DNA of 64,000 nt, taken from Staphylococcus lutrae. Its GTDB lineage: Bacteria; Bacillota; Bacilli; Staphylococcales; Staphylococcaceae. Where the stretch lies: NCBI RefSeq assembly GCF_002101335.1, contig NZ_CP020773.1:1302001-1366000 (forward strand). Reading direction: 5' to 3'. Below, in pieces: positions 126 through 54,384 of this stretch (its first letter is position 1; every line of letters begins with the position of its first letter). The notes under the pieces were generated by a model. The model was not told the origin of the DNA and ran no database searches. It was given only the letters and a program-made list of their open reading frames with translations. The position numbers were made by a program, and so were the translations under genes.

Positions 126-3182
<3,057 letters not shown>

Positions 3183-3186
<4 letters not shown>

Positions 3187-3422
3187 TGCTCACCGAATTT
3201 GATAATATACGAACCGACTTCAGGAATTTCTAACTGATCTCCGTCTTGCAATTTCTTACCACGACGGTTCTCCAATTCGCCATTTAAGAAAACCTCATGT
3301 TCACTTAAGAACCATTTTGCTTGGCCACCAGATTCAATGATGCCTTCATAATTTAAAAATTGTCCTAAAGTTAGTGCGCCATCAACAATGACTTGCTCAG
3401 CCAAATTCATCACTCCATTCAT
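3183..3422 (-). CDS. yaaA: S4-domain RNA-binding protein YaaA
   Basis: A 79-aa protein consisting almost entirely of an S4 RNA-binding fold. Visible hallmarks are [19 protein letters not shown] and [16 protein letters not shown]. It sits between dnaN and recF as in most Firmicutes and overlaps recF by 4 bp. A ribosome-assembly role has been suggested for the family; nothing in the sequence adds to that. Start: the ATG at 3422 has AGGTGA upstream. A second in-frame ATG four codons later (3410) is possible, because close homologues begin near there. Confidence 0.9.
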
Positions 3423-3493
3423 ATTTGCTCACCTATACATTATACATTTTTATAATGAAAATTTCATTCTCTAGAAAGGATTTTCCTTCTAAA

Positions 3494-3509
3494 AGTTTCA
3501 TGTGGAACG
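3494..3509 (-). promoter_or_regulatory. Candidate parS site (ParB-binding palindrome)
   Basis: On the minus strand this reads CGTTCCACATGAAACT. It matches the Firmicute parS consensus TGTTCCACGTGAAACA at 13 of 16 positions, and two of the three mismatches are the terminal bases. It lies in non-coding DNA between yaaA and the DsbA-like gene, near oriC, where parS sites are expected. parB and noc are both in this window. Binding is inferred. Confidence 0.5.
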
Positions 3510-3530
3510 TTTCAGTCCCATCACTTTTAT

Positions 3531-4220
3531 TTATTGGTCAAGTGCACGATCGATTTCTTTATCTATAGCTTCAACATCAGTCGTATCAGCGACACGTTTA
3601 CCATTGATAAACAGAGAAGGCACTTCTGGTACATTAAACTTTTTCGCTAACGCGTGATCTTGTTGTGCATGGTCAGCAATCTCACCTGTTTTTTTGCGAT
3701 AAGCTGAGATGATTTGTTGACGCTGTTTATCAGTGATGTTTAATTTTTGTAGCTGCTCTTGAATGAGCGCATCTGTTAGCCAATGTTGTTGTCCTACGGC
3801 ATCTTTATTTTTAGGTTGCGCTTGATAGAGCAGATGATGGAATGTCCAATATTGTTCAGATGCATATTGATTGACCGCAAGTGCTGCTTTTGCACCAAGT
3901 ACAGACTCTTCACCGTGTATTAATACATTGACATAGCGAAATTCCACTTTGTCATTATTGATATACTTTTTTTCTAATTCTGGTTTAATATGACGTTCAA
4001 AGTCCCCACAATATGGGCATTTATAATCACCGAATTCAACAAGTAACACTTTTTGACCTTTTTTTCCTTGTACGGGTTGTGACTGAGTCTCTGTTGCGAG
4101 CTGTGATTCAACGAGCTTATTATTTTTAGGTTTCTGGTTAAGAAAAGCGAGGCTTATAATGATAAGTGCAATGACCCCTACAACGGTCAATGAAATCATC
4201 CAAATCTTTTTCTTTGTCAT
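3531..4220 (-). CDS. Membrane-anchored DsbA/BdbD-like thiol oxidoreductase
   Basis: A 229-aa protein with one N-terminal membrane segment (residues about 7–27) followed by a DsbA-type thioredoxin fold. The active site is KCPYCG near residue 70, and the cis-proline region EVPSLFINGK is near residue 198. The family forms or rearranges disulfides in extracytoplasmic proteins; which substrate it serves is not visible. It is inserted between dnaN and yaaA, which are normally neighbours in staphylococci. A strong terminator separates it from dnaN, so it probably has its own promoter. No partner quinone reductase (BdbC/DsbB) lies nearby. Confidence 0.85.
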   Translation of the reverse strand: MTKKKIWMISLTVVGVIALIIISLAFLNQKPKNNKLVESQLATETQSQPVQGKKGQKVLLVEFGDYKCPYCGDFERHIKPELEKKYINNDKVEFRYVNVLIHGEESVLGAKAALAVNQYASEQYWTFHHLLYQAQPKNKDAVGQQHWLTDALIQEQLQKLNITDKQRQQIISAYRKKTGEIADHAQQDHALAKKFNVPEVPSLFINGKRVADTTDVEAIDKEIDRALDQ

Positions 4221-4316
4221 GTATTTCCCTCCGTTCTTTATAACATAATTATACTAAAATTTAGCTACTTTGAATATTACACGTGTAACTGCGACAAATG
4301 ACTTTAAAAAGCATAT

Positions 4317-4352
4317 AAAAAAGCAGTTGCGAAATAATTACAACTGCTTTTT
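4317..4352 (-). terminator. Intrinsic terminator after dnaN
   Basis: Inverted repeat AAAGCAGTTG / CAACTGCTTT with A- and T-rich flanks, located 12 bp beyond the dnaN stop. It can act in either direction. It isolates dnaN from the downstream DsbA-like gene. Confidence 0.85.
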
Positions 4353-4364
4353 GTACATCTCATT

Positions 4365-5498
4365 TTAGTAAGTTCTGATTGGTAAGATAAGTTGTATTAC
4401 TGTGTCGTCATTTTGCGGTTTTAGTATAAATGGCTTCATCGTACCAAAAAATTCAACTTCAACGTTCTCATTATCGATAGCTTTTAGTGCATCCATCATA
4501 TATTTTGAGTTGAAAGAGATTTTTAAATGATTGCCTTCAACATCCTTAGCTGTTACTTCTTCTTTTACAGTACCGATTTCTGGAGACGTAGAAGAGAGTT
4601 CGACTCTATCTTCTCCTGTACTGAGCTTAATCACGTTATTACCCCCTTCACGTGCAAGGAGTGATGCACGATCAATAGCATGATAAAATTCGGAATTATC
4701 GAGCCCCAATTTTGTTTCATAGTTCTCAGGGAATAAACGAGACGTATCAGGATAATGACCTTCGAGTAATCTTGAAATGAAGTTAATATGATTGACACGG
4801 AATAAGACCTGATTAGATGCAAAGAAAATGTCAATATAAGCATCACTGTCCGTCATAATTTTATTTAATTCGGCTAATGCCTTTCCTGGAATAATGACAT
4901 TTTTATCTTCAATCTCTTCTTCAAGCTTTAATTTTCTTACAGCCAAGCGGTGTGAATCCGTTGCTGTGCATATTAATTCATTTTGTTGTATAAGCCAGTT
5001 AACCCCCGTTAGGACAGGTCGTGTTTCTGAGGTGGACACCGCAAAATTAGTTTGTGCAATAATATTTTTTAGCACTTTTACCGGCAATTGTAACGCATCA
5101 TCACTAGAAACTTGTGGTAATAATGGATACTGGTCAGGATCAAGACCACTTAGATTAAATTCTGAATGTGCTGAGGTAATTAATGTTTGAAATTGTTCAT
5201 TTGTTGATAATTTAACTTCTTTACCTGGTAGTTTTTTAATAATATCAACAAAGAATCGCCCTGGTAAGACGACTGATCCAAGTTCATTAACTGTTACAAT
5301 TGTTTCACCTTCTACTTGGTTTGGAATTGTTATTTCAATGGATATCTCTGAATCTGAACCTGTTAATATAATACCTGCTTGGGTTGCTTCAATTTTTATC
5401 CCCGTTAAAATAGGTAAAGTCGCTCTTGGGGAAATCGCTTTTAATGTATCATTTAATTGAGTGATAAAATAATCTCTTTGAATAGAAAACTCCATCAT
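4365..5498 (-). CDS. dnaN: DNA polymerase III beta sliding clamp
   Basis: Ring-shaped processivity clamp of the replicative polymerase. The 377-aa length equals the S. aureus protein. Visible family landmarks include TLPILTGIKIEA, SEFNLSGLDPDQYP, TDSHRLAVRKL and the C-terminal LPIRTY. It lies after dnaA on the same strand, separated by a 175-bp stretch with DnaA boxes. It starts MMEFSIQRDYF, as homologues do. Confidence 0.98.
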   Translation of the reverse strand: MMEFSIQRDYFITQLNDTLKAISPRATLPILTGIKIEATQAGIILTGSDSEISIEITIPNQVEGETIVTVNELGSVVLPGRFFVDIIKKLPGKEVKLSTNEQFQTLITSAHSEFNLSGLDPDQYPLLPQVSSDDALQLPVKVLKNIIAQTNFAVSTSETRPVLTGVNWLIQQNELICTATDSHRLAVRKLKLEEEIEDKNVIIPGKALAELNKIMTDSDAYIDIFFASNQVLFRVNHINFISRLLEGHYPDTSRLFPENYETKLGLDNSEFYHAIDRASLLAREGGNNVIKLSTGEDRVELSSTSPEIGTVKEEVTAKDVEGNHLKISFNSKYMMDALKAIDNENVEVEFFGTMKPFILKPQNDDTVIQLILPIRTY

Positions 5499-5673
5499 TC
5501 TATAAACTCCTTTCAGTCGTTTATATAGTTATATAATTATTATTAAAAATAGTAATCATAGTCATAGGTGCTGTGGATTAGTGGATAACTCAAAAAAATA
5601 CTGATGATAACAGCTTGTACACATGTGGATAACCTGTGTATGGTGTGTACAACTTTTCCTCATTATCCACAAA
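5499..5673. other. oriC, dnaA–dnaN arm: DnaA boxes and AT-rich unwinding candidate
   Basis: Boxes matching or close to TTATCCACA lie at 5572–5580, 5580–5588, 5624–5632 (exact, inverted) and 5663–5671 (exact). A very AT-rich tract at about 5519–5560 sits on the dnaN side and includes TATTATTAAAAATAGTAATC. In Bacillus the unwinding element lies in this same dnaA–dnaN gap, so this tract is the likely unwinding site. That placement is by analogy. Confidence 0.8.
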
Positions 5674-7017
5674 TCAACTTCGAATCTCTTTTTCTAAATT
5701 CTCGATTTCTTGTCGCAATGTTGCATCGTTTTCGATATCTTTTTTTATTTTATCATGGGCATGGATGACTGTTGTATGATCGCGTCCTCCAAATTCTTCA
5801 CCGATTTTAGGAAGTGAAAAGTCTGTTAATTCACGAGACAAATACATTGCGATTTGTCGAGGATATGCAATAGATTTTGTTCTTTTCTTCGCTACAAAAT
5901 CTTCAATGCGTACACTATAGTATTCACCTACAACCTTTTGAATATCTTGGATGGTTATTTTTTTGCTTTTAGTCACCTGAATGATGTCTTTTAATGCATC
6001 AGCAGTTAACTCGGTTGTGATGGGTTTTCCTTGAAGTTTTGAATATGCTAAAACGCGTGTCAAAGCCCCTTCAAGTTCACGAATATTTGTTTGAATTTGG
6101 TTGGCAATGTAAGTTAAAGATTCAATTGGAATATCAAGGTTTTCTTCTTCCGTTTTCTTTTGTAAGATGGCCATTCGTGTTTCGAAATCAGGTGGTGTGA
6201 TGTCAACGATAAGTCCCCACTGGAAGCGAGATTTTAAACGTTCTTCTAAAGTAGAAATTTCTTTTGGTGGACGGTCACTTGATATGACGATTTGCTTCTT
6301 GTTTTGATGTAAATCATTGAAGGTATGGAAGAATTCTTCTTGCGTTTGTTCTTTCTTTTGAATGAATTGAATATCATCAATTAACAAAACATCAATGTTA
6401 CGGTATTTTTCACGGAATGACTCAGTATCGTTATTCCGAATGGATTGAATGAATTCATTCGTAAACTTTTCACTGGATGTATAAAGGACTTTAGCACTTG
6501 GATTATTTTCTAAAACATAATGTCCAATCGCATGCATCAAATGTGTTTTCCCTAAACCTACGCCACCATAGATGAAAAGTGGATTATAGGCATTTGCTGG
6601 AGATTCTGCGACAGCAAGACTCGCAGCATGAGGGAAACGATTACCAGGTCCAATGACAAACGTTTCAAAAGTGTTGTTTGTATTGAACTGCTCACCAGAC
6701 ACAACGTTATCAACAGCCGGTGTTTGTGCGGGTTGATTCGATGATGAAGTGAGATTAAGTTCTTGTAAATCTTCTTCTGCAATGAACTTAATTCGAGCGA
6801 GTTGTCGTCCTGTAACGGCCTCTAAAAACTGCTTGATGAGATCGGTATAGTTGGTCTTGAGCCAATTCGCGATAAAGGGTTGTGCCGCGATGACAACAGC
6901 TTCTTCATCAGATAGAGTGTAGAGCGTTGTGTCTTTGAGCCAAGTGTCGTATGAAACATTAGTGACGTTTTCTTTACATAAGTTGAGAACGTTTTCCCAA
7001 ATTTCTTGTTCTGACAT
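5674..7017 (-). CDS. dnaA: Chromosomal replication initiator DnaA
   Basis: AAA+ initiator that binds DnaA boxes and opens oriC. Domain III shows Walker [10 protein letters not shown] and Walker [10 protein letters not shown]. Domain IV carries the DNA-binding signature [15 protein letters not shown]. An ATG four codons further upstream (7029) is open, but 7017 gives [11 protein letters not shown], which matches other staphylococcal starts, and has GGAG six bases before it. The gene is flanked on both sides by DnaA-box clusters, allowing autoregulation. Confidence 0.97.
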
Positions 7018-7830: not shown

Positions 7831-8178
7831 ATGGAAAAAGCATATCGGATTAAAAAAAATGCTGATTTTCAATTGATTTATCGAAAAGGAAAATCGGTAG
7901 CTAATCGTCAATTTGTCGTCTATACTTATGAATCACAACATATGACACACTTTAGATTAGGAATCAGTGTTTCTAAAAAAATAGGAAATGCAGTGACGAG
8001 AAATCGTATTAAACGAAGTATACGAGAGTGTTTCAAAGTGCATAAAGCAGACTTTTTACCCAAAGATATAATTGTCATCGCGAGATTTCCAACTAAGACA
8101 ATGTCGACGCAAGAGATTCAGAAAAGTTTAGAGCATGTATTAAAAATTGCGAAAGTCTTTAACAAACGAATAAAGTAG
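7831..8178 (+). CDS. rnpA: Ribonuclease P protein component
   Basis: The 115-aa protein cofactor of RNase P, which trims tRNA 5' ends. It begins MEKAYRIKKNADFQLIYRKG and has the family signature RNRIKRSIRECF near residue 53. Conserved order rpmH–rnpA. A 14-bp perfect inverted repeat without a T-tract follows the stop. Confidence 0.97.
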   Translation: MEKAYRIKKNADFQLIYRKGKSVANRQFVVYTYESQHMTHFRLGISVSKKIGNAVTRNRIKRSIRECFKVHKADFLPKDIIVIARFPTKTMSTQEIQKSLEHVLKIAKVFNKRIK

Positions 8179-44212: not shown

Positions 44213-45649
44213 TTATTTGAAGAATGAGAAAAGACTACCAATTGCATTTTTAACTTTACTTGCTGTATCAGCTACAGTAATAGCCGTTTTTACAACTTCT
44301 GGGTTTTGATACAATGTGTATAAAACTTTTGTTGTATTGATACCACTTGTTACGAAGTTGCGTGTGTTTGCATAACCTTTGTAAAGTACAGTGTCTTCTG
44401 GCTTGATTTCAAGAGGTGAGATATACGAACCTAATGTACCCTTTTCTCCTAAAATACTCAATACACCAAAGTCAACTGTATTTTTATATTTGAAATATAG
44501 ATTAGTATAATATTTAGCATTATTGTACTTTTCAGTTAAACTTTTATAAGTTTCAGTTATATAGTCATAACCGCTTTTCACGCCGCCTTTAATGTACTCA
44601 TAACCTTGTTCAAATGGGTATTTGAATGCATTCCAGTAGTCACCCCAAGTTGATGTTGACGCATTTATGTCTGTTGATGGTACAACTGGCGCTGATGGCT
44701 TTTGAATATTTTGATTAGTGTCTTTTGCTTCTGGTTGTGCTTGTGGTGCTTGAGGTGTCTGTGGTGCTTGTTCTTTTTTCTCTTCTACTTTAGGTGCTTG
44801 TTCTGCCTCTTTTTTGATTTCAGGTTTTTGTTCTTCTGTTTTAGGTGCAGTTTCTTTGTGCTCTACAGCAGGTTTTTCTTCTTTTGCATCCATTTTAGGT
44901 GCTTGAGGTTGTACTTCTGCTGATGGCGCTTCTTCTTTTATTGGACTTTCAATGTTTTTCAATGCATCTTCAAGATTTTCTATTTGTCTTTTAGTTTCTG
45001 CCTCAGCTTTGATCTTAGCATCTCTTGGTCCGTTAATTGCATCTAAAGCTTTTTGGAAATGTGGTGCATTGTCAGGCGTTAATGAGTTCACGGCGCGTTG
45101 TGCAGTACGTCGATTTTGGATAGTATCTTCCTTTTGTAATGCTTGAAGTGCTTCTTTTGCGTTCATTAACTTTCTATTTTGTATTTCAGTCAGACGGCTT
45201 TGTTCAGTTGTTGCATGCAATGACTCCACAAACACATTTTGACTTGCATCTGGATTTTCTTTAATGCGTGAGATGTATTGATCACGTTGTTTATCAGTGA
45301 TGTTCGTATTTTTTAAAATTTCATAAAACGCATTTTGTTGTGCTACACGACGCTCGGGATTACTAGCATCTTTAATAGACTCTGAATAGACATTTTGAGC
45401 ACTGCTTGGATTCTCATGCAGTTGTTTTAAATATTGGTCTCGTTGACTTTCTGAAATACCGTCCATATGAAGGACTTGATAAAATGCTTTTTGCTCTGGT
45501 GAAACCTTTACTGATTCGAAGTTTGCAGGTTGTGTAGGTGCAAGTGTGGATGTTTGCTCGCTTGCTTCTGCTTGACTATTTGATACGACTGTAGCAATAG
45601 ATAATGTTGCTACGCCCATTAATAAACTTGAAATATACTTGTTTTTCAT
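44213..45649 (-). CDS. sbi: Sbi-like immunoglobulin- and complement-binding protein
   Basis: A 478-aa secreted protein. The signal peptide ends near residue 29. Two protein-A-type three-helix Ig-binding repeats follow: QKAFYQVLHMDGISESQRDQ (from residue 53) and QNAFYEILKNTNITDKQRDQ (from residue 105). Residues 160–215 match Sbi domain IV (IQNRRTAQRAVNSL); R181 and N188 align with the Sbi residues reported to bind C3d. A Pro/Glu/Lys-rich linker (about 235–325) and a Tyr-rich C-terminal domain complete it. There is no LPXTG, as in Sbi and unlike protein A. A SaeR-like site lies upstream. Confidence 0.88.
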   Translation of the reverse strand: MKNKYISSLLMGVATLSIATVVSNSQAEASEQTSTLAPTQPANFESVKVSPEQKAFYQVLHMDGISESQRDQYLKQLHENPSSAQNVYSESIKDASNPERRVAQQNAFYEILKNTNITDKQRDQYISRIKENPDASQNVFVESLHATTEQSRLTEIQNRKLMNAKEALQALQKEDTIQNRRTAQRAVNSLTPDNAPHFQKALDAINGPRDAKIKAEAETKRQIENLEDALKNIESPIKEEAPSAEVQPQAPKMDAKEEKPAVEHKETAPKTEEQKPEIKKEAEQAPKVEEKKEQAPQTPQAPQAQPEAKDTNQNIQKPSAPVVPSTDINASTSTWGDYWNAFKYPFEQGYEYIKGGVKSGYDYITETYKSLTEKYNNAKYYTNLYFKYKNTVDFGVLSILGEKGTLGSYISPLEIKPEDTVLYKGYANTRNFVTSGINTTKVLYTLYQNPEVVKTAITVADTASKVKNAIGSLFSFFK

Positions 45650-46848: not shown

Positions 46849-47091
46849 ATGGCAGGTGGACCAAGAAGAGGCGGTCGTCGTCGTAAAAAAGTTTGTTATT
46901 TCACAGCAAATGGTATTACACATATCGACTATAAAGATACTGAGTTATTAAAACGTTTTATCTCAGAACGTGGTAAAATTTTACCACGTCGTGTCACAGG
47001 TACTTCAGCTAAATATCAACGTATGTTGACTACAGCGATTAAACGTGCACGTCACATGGCATTGTTACCATTCGTTAAAGACGAAGCGTAA
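46849..47091 (+). CDS. rpsR: 30S ribosomal protein S18
   Basis: An 80-aa protein beginning [20 protein letters not shown], with the signature [27 protein letters not shown] precedes the ATG. Last gene of the rpsF operon, followed by a strong terminator whose near-copy recurs at 50405. Confidence 0.97.
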
Positions 47092-47097
47092 AAACAT

Positions 47098-47143
47098 AGC
47101 CCTTCGTACAACTGATAAAGATGTTGTACGAGGGGCTTTTTTT
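47098..47143 (+). terminator. rpsR terminator (left copy of a duplicated terminator)
   Basis: AGCCCTTCGTACAAC and GTTGTACGAGGGGCT pair around tgataaagat, followed by seven T. The same hairpin with four changes lies at 50405–50448, on the other side of the peptide/ABC cluster. Confidence 0.93.
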
Positions 47144-47422: not shown

Positions 47423-47451
47423 TTGACATTTTTAATTTTACCAATTAGACT
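47423..47451 (+). promoter_or_regulatory. Promoter of the 29-aa peptide gene
   Basis: Perfect TTGACA (47423–47428), 17-base spacer, TAGACT (47446–47451). Transcription would start only about 15 bases before the peptide ATG. Confidence 0.65.
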
Positions 47452-47473
47452 TTAATTGAAGGAAATGATAACA

Positions 47474-47563
47474 ATGAAAAAATTATTAGATTTTCTAACT
47501 TTTAATGAAGTAAACCTTTGGATTTTTAAATTTGGTAGAAAAGGTAAAAGATGGTATTTTTAA
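47474..47563 (+). CDS. 29-aa cationic/aromatic peptide (putative exported peptide)
   Basis: The peptide begins MKKLLDFLTF, has NEVNLWIFKF in the middle and ends GRKGKRWYF. A GAAGGAAA ribosome site lies 8–10 bases upstream. It has no double-glycine leader or Sec signal. The N-terminal half is amphipathic/hydrophobic and the C-terminal nine residues carry four or five positive charges plus Trp-Tyr-Phe. It is followed by a hairpin terminator and then a CPBP protease and ABC transporter genes, the standard order for small bacteriocin or signalling-peptide operons. It could be a leaderless bacteriocin, toxin-like peptide or signal precursor. Not an annotated family that I recognise. Confidence 0.68.
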   Translation: MKKLLDFLTFNEVNLWIFKFGRKGKRWYF

Positions 47564-47575
47564 TTAAAAAGTTGT

Positions 47576-47634
47576 AAAGCATCAAAAACATTAAAAAATT
47601 AATCTATTTTTAAGTTTTCGATGCTTTTATTTTT
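47576..47634 (+). terminator. Attenuator hairpin between peptide and protease genes
   Basis: AAAGCATCAAAAAC (47576–47589) with GTTTTCGATGCTTT (47614–47627), plus an inner TTAAAAA / TTTTTAA, make a stem of about 20 bp with one mismatch. TATTTTT follows. This would keep peptide mRNA in excess over the processing and transport genes. Confidence 0.8.
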
Positions 47635-47644
47635 GGTGCTAATA

Positions 47645-48220
47645 ATGAAAAAGTTTGAAAGTTTATTATTATCTGTTGCTGTAGTCGTTATTGTAGGTTT
47701 TTCTTTTAACATAGGTATACTTCTTATATCTTTATTAGACAATGATACATTTTCCAATATATATTTATTTCTATTTGTTTTAGTATTTATTATTAATTTT
47801 ATATTTATCCCTGTATTCTTAATCAATCGAATTTTAGGAATAAAAAATAATGCGCTTTTACATAATTTATTTAACTGGAAAAGAACCATGCTACTATTTT
47901 CGACAGTTTTACTTTTTTCAATTTTTTATGTTGGAAAAGATGCAACGATAGAATATTTTATTGTTGCGTTTGGTGAAGAGTTTTTATTTCGTCACCTCAT
48001 ATTCTTTATTCTTTTGCATGCTTTTAATAAAAAGTGGAGCATATTGATTGGTTCGCTTTTATTTGCTTTACTTTTACATTTAAACGGAAATTTTTTTGTG
48101 AATATATTAACAAAATTTCCTGTTAGTATTTTATTATATTATTTGGCTAATAAATATAAATTACAGGATGCTATTTCTGTTCATTGGTTGTATAATGTGA
48201 TGATTTATAGGCTCACTTAA
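47645..48220 (+). CDS. CPBP (CAAX-type) intramembrane protease
   Basis: A 191-aa polytopic membrane protein with about six hydrophobic segments. The three CPBP motifs are present: EE-x3-R in FGEEFLFRHLIF, F-x3-H in FALLLHLNGNF, and H-x3-N in HWLYN. Such proteins process or give immunity to small bacteriocins and pheromones. The frame extends 8 codons upstream into the hairpin; ATG 47645 is the likely start. It lies between the peptide gene and the transporter genes, so it is a candidate maturation or immunity factor. Confidence 0.85.
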   Translation: MKKFESLLLSVAVVVIVGFSFNIGILLISLLDNDTFSNIYLFLFVLVFIINFIFIPVFLINRILGIKNNALLHNLFNWKRTMLLFSTVLLFSIFYVGKDATIEYFIVAFGEEFLFRHLIFFILLHAFNKKWSILIGSLLFALLLHLNGNFFVNILTKFPVSILLYYLANKYKLQDAISVHWLYNVMIYRLT

Positions 48221-48240
48221 GGCATGGAGGTTATTTTAAT

Positions 48241-48651
48241 ATGAAAATAAAACACAGAAGTCTTTTGATTTCAATTATATTAAATACTATATTTTCAGTC
48301 ATAATGGGTATAATAAATATAAATTTAGGGTTGTTTGTAATGATAATAGGGGTTATTATCATTCCTGTTATGATAAATATCATATGCTTTAAATTAAGCA
48401 ACGAACCTTATAAAATAAAGACAATTTTCTTAATGACTTTATTCAATGTTTTTTACTATGTAATTGTATCTAAGTCTATTATGAGTAACTCCAAGTTTTA
48501 TGAGATAGCTTCAAGATATTCTCATGAAGAAAATGGTTTTTACATTCATATGAATACGAATCTATTATCGCTTTCACAATTAGTATTTATCTCTTTATTA
48601 TACTTTGTTTTAAGCTTTTTATTAATAAGAATTTTTCGAAAAGTGGGATGA
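48241..48651 (+). CDS. Four-helix membrane protein of the peptide cluster
   Basis: A 136-aa protein with four hydrophobic helices (residues about 8–25, 28–50, 60–78, 108–130). GGAGG lies upstream of the ATG. It overlaps the ABC ATPase start (ATGA), so they are translationally coupled. No named family is recognised; probable immunity protein or transporter accessory subunit. Confidence 0.75.
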   Translation: MKIKHRSLLISIILNTIFSVIMGIININLGLFVMIIGVIIIPVMINIICFKLSNEPYKIKTIFLMTLFNVFYYVIVSKSIMSNSKFYEIASRYSHEENGFYIHMNTNLLSLSQLVFISLLYFVLSFLLIRIFRKVG

Positions 48652-49544
48652 AAATGCTAGTATTAAATAATGTTAATAAAAAATTTAATGGTGATGATAC
48701 AAATATTTTGAATGATATCAATTTGAATATTGAAAAAGGTGAAATTGTAGGTTTATTAGGTAAAAATGGTGCTGGTAAAACGACTTTGATGAAAATTATT
48801 GCTAAAACTAAAAGACCAGATTCAGGAACTATTTATATTAATAATGTTAATATTTTTAAAAATGATGACATTTTAAGGAAAGTCGGAATTATGATAGATA
48901 CGGTTTATTACGACCATTTATCGGCAGAGCAAAATTTACTCTATTTTTTAAGAGTAAATAATCAAATTGAATACATAAAAAATATTGATAGAATATTAAC
49001 ATTGGTTGGTTTGTTAGATACAAAAAATAAAAAAGTTAAAAATTTTTCTTTTGGTATGAAGCAAAGACTTTCTTTAGCGATGTGTCTATTAACAGAGCCT
49101 GATTTAGCTATTATGGATGAACCTTTTGTAGGGTTAGATCCCAATGGTGTTAAAATCTTAATAAGTTCTTTAAAAAAATGGGTTGAAAATAGAAATATCT
49201 CTCTTTTGATTTCTAGCCATCAATTAAGTGAATTGGAAGAAGTATGTAATAGGTTTGTGATACTGAAAGATGGTCAGTTACATGACATTTCATTTGATAA
49301 AGAGACAGGAATAAAAATATTAGTAACAAGAAATATTAGTGAAAAAGATGCTCTGTTATTCAAAAAAGATTTTCCTATAATCACTAAAATTCAAGAAAAT
49401 GCCATTTATGTTAGTGATGAAACAAATAGTTTTAATGAATTGATTAAAGAAATCCTCATTAAATACGATTTGTTCAAGATAGAAAATAAATCTAAAGATT
49501 TATATAACGTATTTGATGATTTCGAGAATAAAGGAGAAAAATAA
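48648..49544 (+). CDS. ABC transporter ATP-binding protein
   Basis: A 298-aa nucleotide-binding subunit. Walker A GKNGAGKTT (near residue 38), signature SFGMKQRLSLA, Walker B LAIMDEPFVGLDP and switch His in LISSHQLSELE are all intact. The C-terminal extension (from about 215) resembles drug/bacteriocin ATPases. It is coupled to the small membrane protein and abuts the permease gene. Confidence 0.93.
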   Translation: MKMLVLNNVNKKFNGDDTNILNDINLNIEKGEIVGLLGKNGAGKTTLMKIIAKTKRPDSGTIYINNVNIFKNDDILRKVGIMIDTVYYDHLSAEQNLLYFLRVNNQIEYIKNIDRILTLVGLLDTKNKKVKNFSFGMKQRLSLAMCLLTEPDLAIMDEPFVGLDPNGVKILISSLKKWVENRNISLLISSHQLSELEEVCNRFVILKDGQLHDISFDKETGIKILVTRNISEKDALLFKKDFPIITKIQENAIYVSDETNSFNELIKEILIKYDLFKIENKSKDLYNVFDDFENKGEK

Positions 49545-50297
49545 ATGCTTTTTAAAAATATATTTTTGAATATGTCTTCTCGCACATCAGCTAAATTATT
49601 TTATTCTATTTCTTTATATCCTTTCCTTTATTTAATCACACTAGTTTTACCCACTAATTTTATGCAAATTGGTGGTGTCGAAAATGGTTTATCAGGTTTA
49701 GATTTTTTCTATGGAATATTATTGGCACAGTCTCAATTTGCTATTCCCCTTATATTGATGACATACTTTGTTAGTTTATCTTTCTATGAGGAAATTAATA
49801 GTGGTAAGTTGATTCTATACAAAGATATTAAACGTTCTAGATTGCTCAATGCTAAATTATTTTCATTAATTACAATGTATGCTTTTTATTTTGTTTTATT
49901 GTTTATATCTTCTGTAATTTTATATTATATATACATTAAGAATTTTGATTATGCATCGGGTCATTTTTTACCTTTAGATATAAACGATGTATACTTTGAT
50001 GTATTGAGTATTATGAGTATTATAGGAATTTCTTATATAGCCTTATTTTTTGCTACAACTTTATCGATGAAATTTTCAACTGGTTTTACGATATTAGGCG
50101 TTATTTTGTTATTTATGGTTATATCTATAGCACCTTTAATTGATGGAACGCATTATCTATTCCCTAATGGTTTTACTCATGCTGAAAGTTTAAATATGTT
50201 TTTAATTCAATGTTTAATAATTGCTTCTATGTCTATATTATATATTATGTTATTCTATTTTATTAGTTTGTTAATTTTTAAAAAAATAGAGTATTAA
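49545..50297 (+). CDS. ABC transporter permease (ABC-2 type)
   Basis: A 250-aa protein with six hydrophobic segments, starting right after the ATPase stop. The sequence FYEEINSGKLILYKDIKRSR in the first cytoplasmic loop fits ABC-2 permeases that export peptides or confer immunity. The operon ends shortly afterwards in the duplicated terminator. Confidence 0.85.
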   Translation: MLFKNIFLNMSSRTSAKLFYSISLYPFLYLITLVLPTNFMQIGGVENGLSGLDFFYGILLAQSQFAIPLILMTYFVSLSFYEEINSGKLILYKDIKRSRLLNAKLFSLITMYAFYFVLLFISSVILYYIYIKNFDYASGHFLPLDINDVYFDVLSIMSIIGISYIALFFATTLSMKFSTGFTILGVILLFMVISIAPLIDGTHYLFPNGFTHAESLNMFLIQCLIIASMSILYIMLFYFISLLIFKKIEY

Positions 50298-50327
50298 TTT
50301 TAGGGTTTTATTGCACAATTTCCGATT

Positions 50328-50391
50328 ATAATACGAGGTAATTTAATGGAGTTGAGACACTATGTCTCAGCCATCTATTTGATTGTATTAT
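50328..50391. repeat. Imperfect 64-bp palindrome after the permease gene
   Basis: ATAATAC…ATGG…TGAGAC on the left pairs with GTCTCA…CCAT…GTATTAT on the right, around a 5-base loop. It lies just before the duplicated terminator. It may be a stability hairpin or a MITE-like repeat. Confidence 0.65.
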
Positions 50392-50404
50392 TTCAAAAAA
50401 ATAT

Positions 50405-50448
50405 AGCCCCTCGTGCAACGGATAAAGATGTTGTACGAGGGGTTTTTT
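50405..50448. terminator. Right copy of the rpsR-type terminator
   Basis: AGCCCCTCGTGCAAC and GTTGTACGAGGGG pair around ggataaagat, followed by six T; it matches 47098–47143 at all but four hairpin positions. It lies between the ABC cluster (plus) and the catalase gene (minus) and can serve both. Confidence 0.9.
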
Positions 50449-53357: not shown

Positions 53358-53394
53358 TTGTGATATACTAACTTTTATATGAGGAGGAATGACT

Positions 53395-54384
53395 ATGAAA
53401 ATTGCAGAACAAATATTGGAAGGTCGTGAATTGACTCCGGAGCAAGCGTTAGATTTGTTGGTAAATCCTACATATGAAACGATGGATTTAGTACATGAAG
53501 CGTATCAATTACGTAAACATTATTACGGGCATAAAGTAAAATTGAACATGATTTTAAATGCGAAAAGCGGGATTTGTCCTGAAGATTGTGGTTATTGTGG
53601 TCAGTCACGTGAAATGAAACAGAAGCAGCGCTATGCCTTGATATCAGAAGACGCCATTACCGAAGGGGCAAAAGTGGCAGCTGAAAATGAGATCGGCACA
53701 TATTGTATTGTGATGAGTGGTCGTGGTCCAAGTGATAAAGAAATTGATCATATCACATCTTCGGTTGAACGCATTAAAGCCAATCATCCTCAATTGAAAG
53801 TGTGTGCGTGTCTTGGTTTGACAAATGAATCACAAGCAGCACGCTTAAAGGCGGCGGGAGTGGATCGTTATAATCATAACTTGAACACGAGTGAACATTA
53901 TCATGATGAAGTGGTGACAACGCACACGTACCAAGATCGCGTGAATACGATTGAAATAATGAAAAACAACCATATTTCACCATGCTCAGGTGTGATTTGT
54001 GGGATGGGGGAATCCGATCAAGATATTGTTGATATGGCATTTGCGTTGAAAGCGATAGATGCAGATAGTATTCCGGTCAATTTTTTACATCCTATTAAAG
54101 GCACGAAATTTGGTGACATGGATCAATTGACGCCTATGCGATGTTTGCGCTTGTTAGCCCTTTTCCGTTTAGTCAATCCATCAAAAGAAATCCGAATTGC
54201 AGGGGGAAGAGAAGTGAATTTGCGCTCATTACAAGCAACTGCGTTAATGGTGGCGAATTCTATTTTTGTCGGGGATTATTTAATTACAGGGGGGCAACCG
54301 AATCAACTCGATTACGATATGATTCGTGATATGGGTTATGAAATTGATTATGGCTCATCGTTGACCTCAAGTACTTTGTCATAA
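53395..54384 (+). CDS. bioB: Biotin synthase
   Basis: A radical-SAM enzyme that inserts sulfur into dethiobiotin. It is 329 aa with the 4Fe–4S motif [11 protein letters not shown] near residue 60, later cysteine/arginine ligands of the second cluster in [10 protein letters not shown] and [11 protein letters not shown]. No bioA, bioD or bioF is adjacent; it stands alone behind a BirA-type operator. The ATG at 53395 has GGAGG seven bases upstream; an ATG two codons earlier is too close. Confidence 0.96.

Follow-up and report, generated by a model that had tools for sequence, protein, structure and literature searches.

A conserved 29-residue cationic peptide gene heads a CPBP–Msa–ABC transporter cluster in Staphylococcus lutrae

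The 2.53-Mb chromosome of Staphylococcus lutrae (NCBI RefSeq assembly GCF_002101335.1, contig NZ_CP020773.1) carries a five-gene cluster, flanked by rpsR and a catalase gene, that opens with a 29-codon frame for a short cationic peptide. The cluster lies within 47423-50448 of the 64,000-nucleotide stretch analysed here (the window; positions 1,302,001 to 1,366,000 of the contig, forward strand). A first-pass annotation of the sequence had read it as a peptide gene heading coupled genes for a CPBP protease, a membrane protein and an ATP-binding cassette (ABC) exporter. All five genes are confirmed where it had placed them, and the leading peptide gene is real and conserved. The 29-codon frame is a protein-coding gene under purifying selection; its product represents a peptide family that is new, served by a toolkit of known type.

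The peptide gene (47474..47563, plus strand) encodes MKKLLDFLTFNEVNLWIFKFGRKGKRWYF, with a net charge of +5 and no cysteine. It is preceded by the ribosome site AAGGAA (47459-47464), and ATG 47474 is its best start, the in-frame TTG 47456 and ATG 47465 upstream matching the ribosome site less well. As claimed earlier, there is no leader: neither a signal peptide nor a double-glycine leader is seen by eye in the sequence or in the alignments, where the peptides span 26-30 residues. Judged in the same way, the peptide shares with leaderless bacteriocins the lack of any leader or signal sequence.

CPBP relatives are found in 17 of the 84 genomes of the genus, and a 29-codon frame of clear likeness stands upstream of ten relatives' clusters. 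A profile built from 12 peptides matched 17 of these 84 genomes at E<=1e-3; built from 16 peptides, it matched 18 of the 157 genomes of the order at the same threshold, with a single match in each and in two of 14 genera. All 18 matches adjoin cluster genes or remains of them. Two are relics: the frame of G012 has an in-frame stop and lies beside a permease tail, while that of G055 has a stop at its last codon. An additional copy, absent from the gene table, sits on the S. simulans plasmid NZ_CP094708. When the 16 intact peptides are aligned, all have glycine sixth from the end and phenylalanine or tryptophan as the last residue.

The peptides form two branches. Branch 1, which includes the window, S. 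nepalensis, S. pseudintermedius, S. equorum, S. caeli and others, has 29-30 residues and ends such as GRKGKRWYF or YKGKKHQW; none of ten branch-1 loci has msaA, cspA or lysA nearby, and one of its genomes (G065) has the neighbourhood after ssb-rpsR in common with the window. Branch 2 has 26-27 residues, a core of I-G/R-RF-Y/H-x-G-Y/W-R/K-G-R/K and, in its five intact members, a KW end. It includes G152, a genome of another genus, and lies at the msaA-cspA...lysA locus in 7/7 cases (in G046 across a contig gap). The peptide's final codons and the start codon of CPBP overlap in four of these seven loci (G008, G026, G046 and G152).

A lack of conservation of the frame had been named beforehand as an observation that would speak against the peptide. 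The comparison was run, and the frame is conserved with a low ratio of non-synonymous to synonymous differences (pN/pS). In branch 1a (seven sequences, 21 pairs) the ratio falls between 0.10 and 0.35 for 19 pairs, with one further pair at 0 and one undefined; five of the six pairs in branch 1b (four sequences) give 0.11-0.32.

The second gene (47645..48220, plus strand) encodes a CPBP / Rce1-like intramembrane protease of the Abi type (Pfam PF02517, E 3.2e-10, 40.6 bits for a cut-off of 22.4). Its residues E111, E112, R116, H145, H180 and N184, which make up the three motifs read from it before (EExxxR, H and HxxxN), are invariant in 11 aligned sequences; both the domain and the motif residues of the family are present. 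The membrane protein that follows (48241..48651, plus strand) has four helices, as first described, in an AlphaFold2 model with a mean predicted local distance difference test (pLDDT) score of 82.9. Its family had been missed: it is NCBIfam Msa (NF038270), matched over positions 2-129 of 130 with 71.3 bits, the curated cut-off being 45. The gene overlaps by 4 nt that of an ATPase of the lantibiotic-protection / DrrA / PmtC kind (48648..49544, plus strand), in which the Q-loop glutamine is replaced by aspartate. Against the PmtC equivalog the ATPase scores 134.5 bits, below the cut-off of 375, and it is not assigned to Pmt. The last gene (49545..50297, plus strand) encodes a permease whose model has the fold of an ABC-2 exporter. 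Family searches and this fold agree with the ATPase and ABC-2 permease proposed at the outset.

Variants of these genes occur in relatives. In G008 (L033, 6553-7806) Msa and the ABC ATPase form a single 417-codon open frame with an internal ATG and a ribosome-site-like stretch, perhaps a natural fusion. Certain clusters have a 58-residue frame and a second CPBP gene after the permease (L117, 7757-8834; L032, 8426-9499). A permease of S. hominis (P0005) is 80% identical to that of the window and so more similar to it than the relatives of alignment A2 are; this likeness suggests strain-level or horizontal spread.

The peptide and the transporter are co-inherited. The permease is found in 24 of 157 genomes and is intact in 16/16 genomes with an intact peptide; in G046 it lies on another contig, and the CPBP, Msa and ATPase genes of that genome fall at contig ends, outside this assessment. 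Seven genomes (G011, G025, G028, G031, G056, G057 and G069) have the permease without the peptide, and G028, G056 and G069 have ABC genes without a match to peptide, CPBP or Msa. At E<=1e-3, Msa is matched in 25 of the 84 genomes of the genus; of the 22 that score above the family cut-off, nine have no peptide. Since an intact peptide never occurs without the permease, while permease and Msa persist without the peptide, dependence runs one way, with the peptide relying on the transporter. This dependence pattern is that of a product needing export or immunity. The CPBP gene is interrupted in G065 and G026, where sequencing errors are possible, and unmatched in G061, with the peptide intact in all three; this makes the earlier suggestion of a signal cleaved in the membrane less likely. 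In G061 the peptide gene is placed between Msa and the ATPase.

We now propose an explanation for the cluster, to which we give an even chance of being right: the peptide is the cluster's product, leaderless, cationic and membrane-active, exported by the ABC-2 transporter that also protects the producer, with Msa and CPBP in accessory or immunity roles. The 29-residue peptide, bacteriocin-like or phenol-soluble-modulin-like, would be translated in its final form. The transporter would clear it from the cell or the membrane, which would protect the producer too. The Msa protein may be an accessory subunit or modulator of the transporter, assisting it as LugI does for lugdunin (PMC7927808). Finally, the CPBP protein might add self-immunity of the Abi type or trim the peptide. 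If this is true, peptides protecting or arming staphylococci would bear on skin and nose colonisation. The new family, together with its dedicated machinery, recurs both in staphylococci and on the mobilizable S. simulans plasmid.

Several observations weigh against this explanation. The peptide has no match in Pfam or NCBIfam and none among PDB chains at E<=10, nor does it match known bacteriocins or modulins in sequence, short queries having little power in these searches. The count of peptide genomes depends on the threshold of E<=1e-3, a loose tally at E<=1 giving some match in 54 of 84 genomes. A close pair of branch 1b has a pN/pS of 0.60 (one synonymous and three non-synonymous differences), and the C-terminal KW of the overlapping branch-2 loci may be partly held by the overlap with the CPBP start. 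In G030 the CPBP start is doubtful and Msa carries stops. Bacteriocins often diversify faster than neighbouring genes; here, among ten branch-1 loci, identity is higher for the peptide than for CPBP in 42 of 45 pairs, which also suits an internal or signalling role. Regulators also lie a few kb from the cluster in two relatives: downstream of the S. nepalensis cluster, at about 2.2 kb and past two other genes, a response regulator is paired with a histidine-kinase-like gene (L022, 76-1768, minus strand), and a MarR-type regulator precedes the S. equorum cluster (L025) by about 1.8 kb.

These regulators would suit a signalling pheromone, cleaved by CPBP within the membrane, exported through the ABC transporter and sensed by an unlinked receptor. 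A CPBP protein with intact catalytic residues directly after the peptide fits such a role, and the conserved peptide C-terminus could be the ligand; the CPBP protein MroQ reportedly acts in AgrD processing. We consider the pheromone unlikely, if deserving of attention, for the CPBP gene is interrupted or unmatched alongside an intact peptide in the three genomes named above, and ABC genes that stand without peptide, CPBP and Msa are hard to fit to a pheromone exporter. In addition, no kinase, regulator or lanthionine synthetase is encoded in the cluster or by any of the seven neighbouring genes that were tested around it (Sbi-like, S6, SSB, S18, catalase, DUF1801 and BioB-like). The only radical-SAM gene among these seven is biotin synthase-like (53389-54384), in keeping with the initial statement that the cluster has no histidine kinase, lanthionine synthetase or radical-SAM enzyme. 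The peptide could instead be retained in the producer's membrane and serve the Msa/ABC transporter as one of its subunits, acting as a small protein that senses stress or resembles a type I toxin; its slow evolution and its co-inheritance with the permease would fit this. A strongly cationic peptide with no clear transmembrane run by eye, and a permease retained without it in seven genomes, leave this quite improbable.

Between the peptide and CPBP genes lies a hairpin (47567..47634, core 47576-47627, plus strand) whose fold has a z of -3.3 against shuffles; a terminator scan did not list it. A hairpin occurs here in 12/12 branch-1 loci folded, with z from -3.3 to -7.7, and the sequences are mostly unlike. 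The attenuator hairpin of the first reading is thus real in position, its attenuator role being a matter of interpretation. Together with the lantibiotic-protection-like ATPase downstream, the hairpin would suit a regulatory leader peptide, on which ribosome stalling opens the hairpin and turns on a resistance ABC operon. We find this very improbable: the start overlap in the four branch-2 loci leaves no room for a hairpin, the gene order of G061 puts the peptide after Msa, and amino-acid conservation extends to the C-terminal end of the peptide while the hairpin sequences differ.

The branch-2 clusters link the Msa family to msaC of S. aureus. In the four genomes of the S. aureus complex examined (G004, G006, G058 and G066), Msa alone stands between msaA-cspA and lysA. 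Their Msa proteins are identical or 99% identical to database entries: that of G004 to one from S. argenteus (P0033), that of G006 to one from S. aureus (P0095), that of G066 to one from S. singaporensis (P0041), and that of G058 to a further entry, with 95% identity to S. schweitzeri. In 6/6 pairs of these genomes the msaC frame has a pN/pS of 0.06-0.15 (pS 0.26-0.65); to judge by this substitution pattern, it evolves as a protein. The msaC gene of S. aureus thus has the appearance of a remnant left by such a cluster. As a separate observation, cspA (msaB) of G006 (L071, reverse strand 5707-5811) is without an internal stretch, leaving a 34-codon frame, and the adjoining msaC is intact.

PMC4229872 presents msaC as a regulator and non-coding RNA, and PMC2099497 reports a single significant homologue, in S. 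epidermidis. Part of the case for calling the frame non-coding was that it had no known relatives. The NCBI family name is already Msa, and the phrase 'Msa family membrane protein' was not found in the literature searched. Tentatively, and at less than even confidence, we suggest that msaC is a protein gene rather than a non-coding RNA or a dedicated regulator, and the last survivor of an ancestral cspA-linked peptide cluster; on this view the cluster described here would produce leaderless membrane-active peptides of a new family. MsaC would then act as an orphan immunity protein or transport modulator against cationic peptides of other staphylococci, the virulence phenotypes arising via effects on cspA. 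What speaks against this is that in PMC4229872 a frameshifted msaC still complemented the operon deletion, so the protein is not needed for the operon-deletion phenotypes described there; its authors were also unable to express MsaC, and shortened Msa proteins are present in S. aureus records. These published results and the protein-like evolution of the frame are compatible if the known phenotypes stem from cspA or the transcript while the MsaC protein has another selected role. The cluster places MsaC within a family and a gene context, and offers a protein function that can be tested.

The cluster in the window is flanked by a direct repeat of 52 nt, its left copy after rpsR (47090..47141, plus strand) and its right copy, 90% identical and also a terminator-like site, after the cluster (50397..50448, plus strand). 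The 21-nt repeat core has two occurrences in the genome at <=2 mismatches, both here, and the sequences after rpsR in 17 relatives differ when read by eye. The repeat-flanked cluster looks like a 3.3-kb cassette; we take the rpsR end to be an island integration site in staphylococci. The first-pass annotation had missed this cassette, like the Msa family, the clusters at the msaABC locus and the radical-SAM cousin described below. The promoter it placed before the peptide gene is present as TTGACA-17-TAGACT (47423..47451, plus strand), and such sites are as frequent in this AT-rich stretch as chance predicts (29 found, 27.8 expected from shuffles). Further upstream, the Sbi-like immunoglobulin-binding protein (44213-45649, minus strand) has B domains (Pfam B, Sbi-IV).

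Related toolkits occur elsewhere. The same genome has a radical-SAM cousin (L038, G000:C1:417300-429900, 1948-6585; also L039 in G009) with genes for CPBP, a 146-residue four-helix protein, a radical-SAM/SPASM enzyme, an ABC pair and a regulator with a Crp-type domain; no precursor peptide was recognised just upstream of its CPBP gene. The S. epidermidis plasmid NZ_CP009047 (L118, 6129-9177) carries a related ABC pair, then a 36-residue frame, CPBP and a 146-residue membrane protein. The frame (7907-8017), absent from the gene table, encodes a cationic peptide with two cysteines, which may represent a third type of peptide served by this toolkit.

Among known systems, the YydF/epipeptide and Skf layouts likewise join a small peptide, a membrane protease and an ABC pair, whereas our cluster has no radical-SAM maturase gene. 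It also differs from Agr-like quorum sensing, as an AgrB-like protease and a histidine kinase or regulator are absent from the cluster and the seven flanking genes. Phenol-soluble modulins are short leaderless peptides; the cluster has an ATPase related to that of PmtABCD and a similar permease fold, but differs in having CPBP and Msa, one ABC pair rather than two and no peptide family match. The peptide may bear some likeness in sequence to the LsbB family, whose members kill through the RseP receptor. It is likewise short and leaderless; the gene cluster differs, and no PDB chain matched at the threshold above, a search of little power with so short a query. LsbB and enterocin K1 are described in PMC5413573 as leaderless, of 30 and 37 residues, with an amphiphilic helix and an unstructured tail. 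For lugdunin, LugIEFGH confers self-resistance and ABC-type export with the help of a small membrane protein whose role is unclear (PMC7927808); lugdunin itself is a non-ribosomal product, and the parallel between LugI and Msa is one of description. Finally, the msaABCR locus of S. aureus has only Msa in the four genomes examined, unlike our cluster, but shares with it the Msa-family membrane protein, and its position between cspA and lysA is where related clusters are found.

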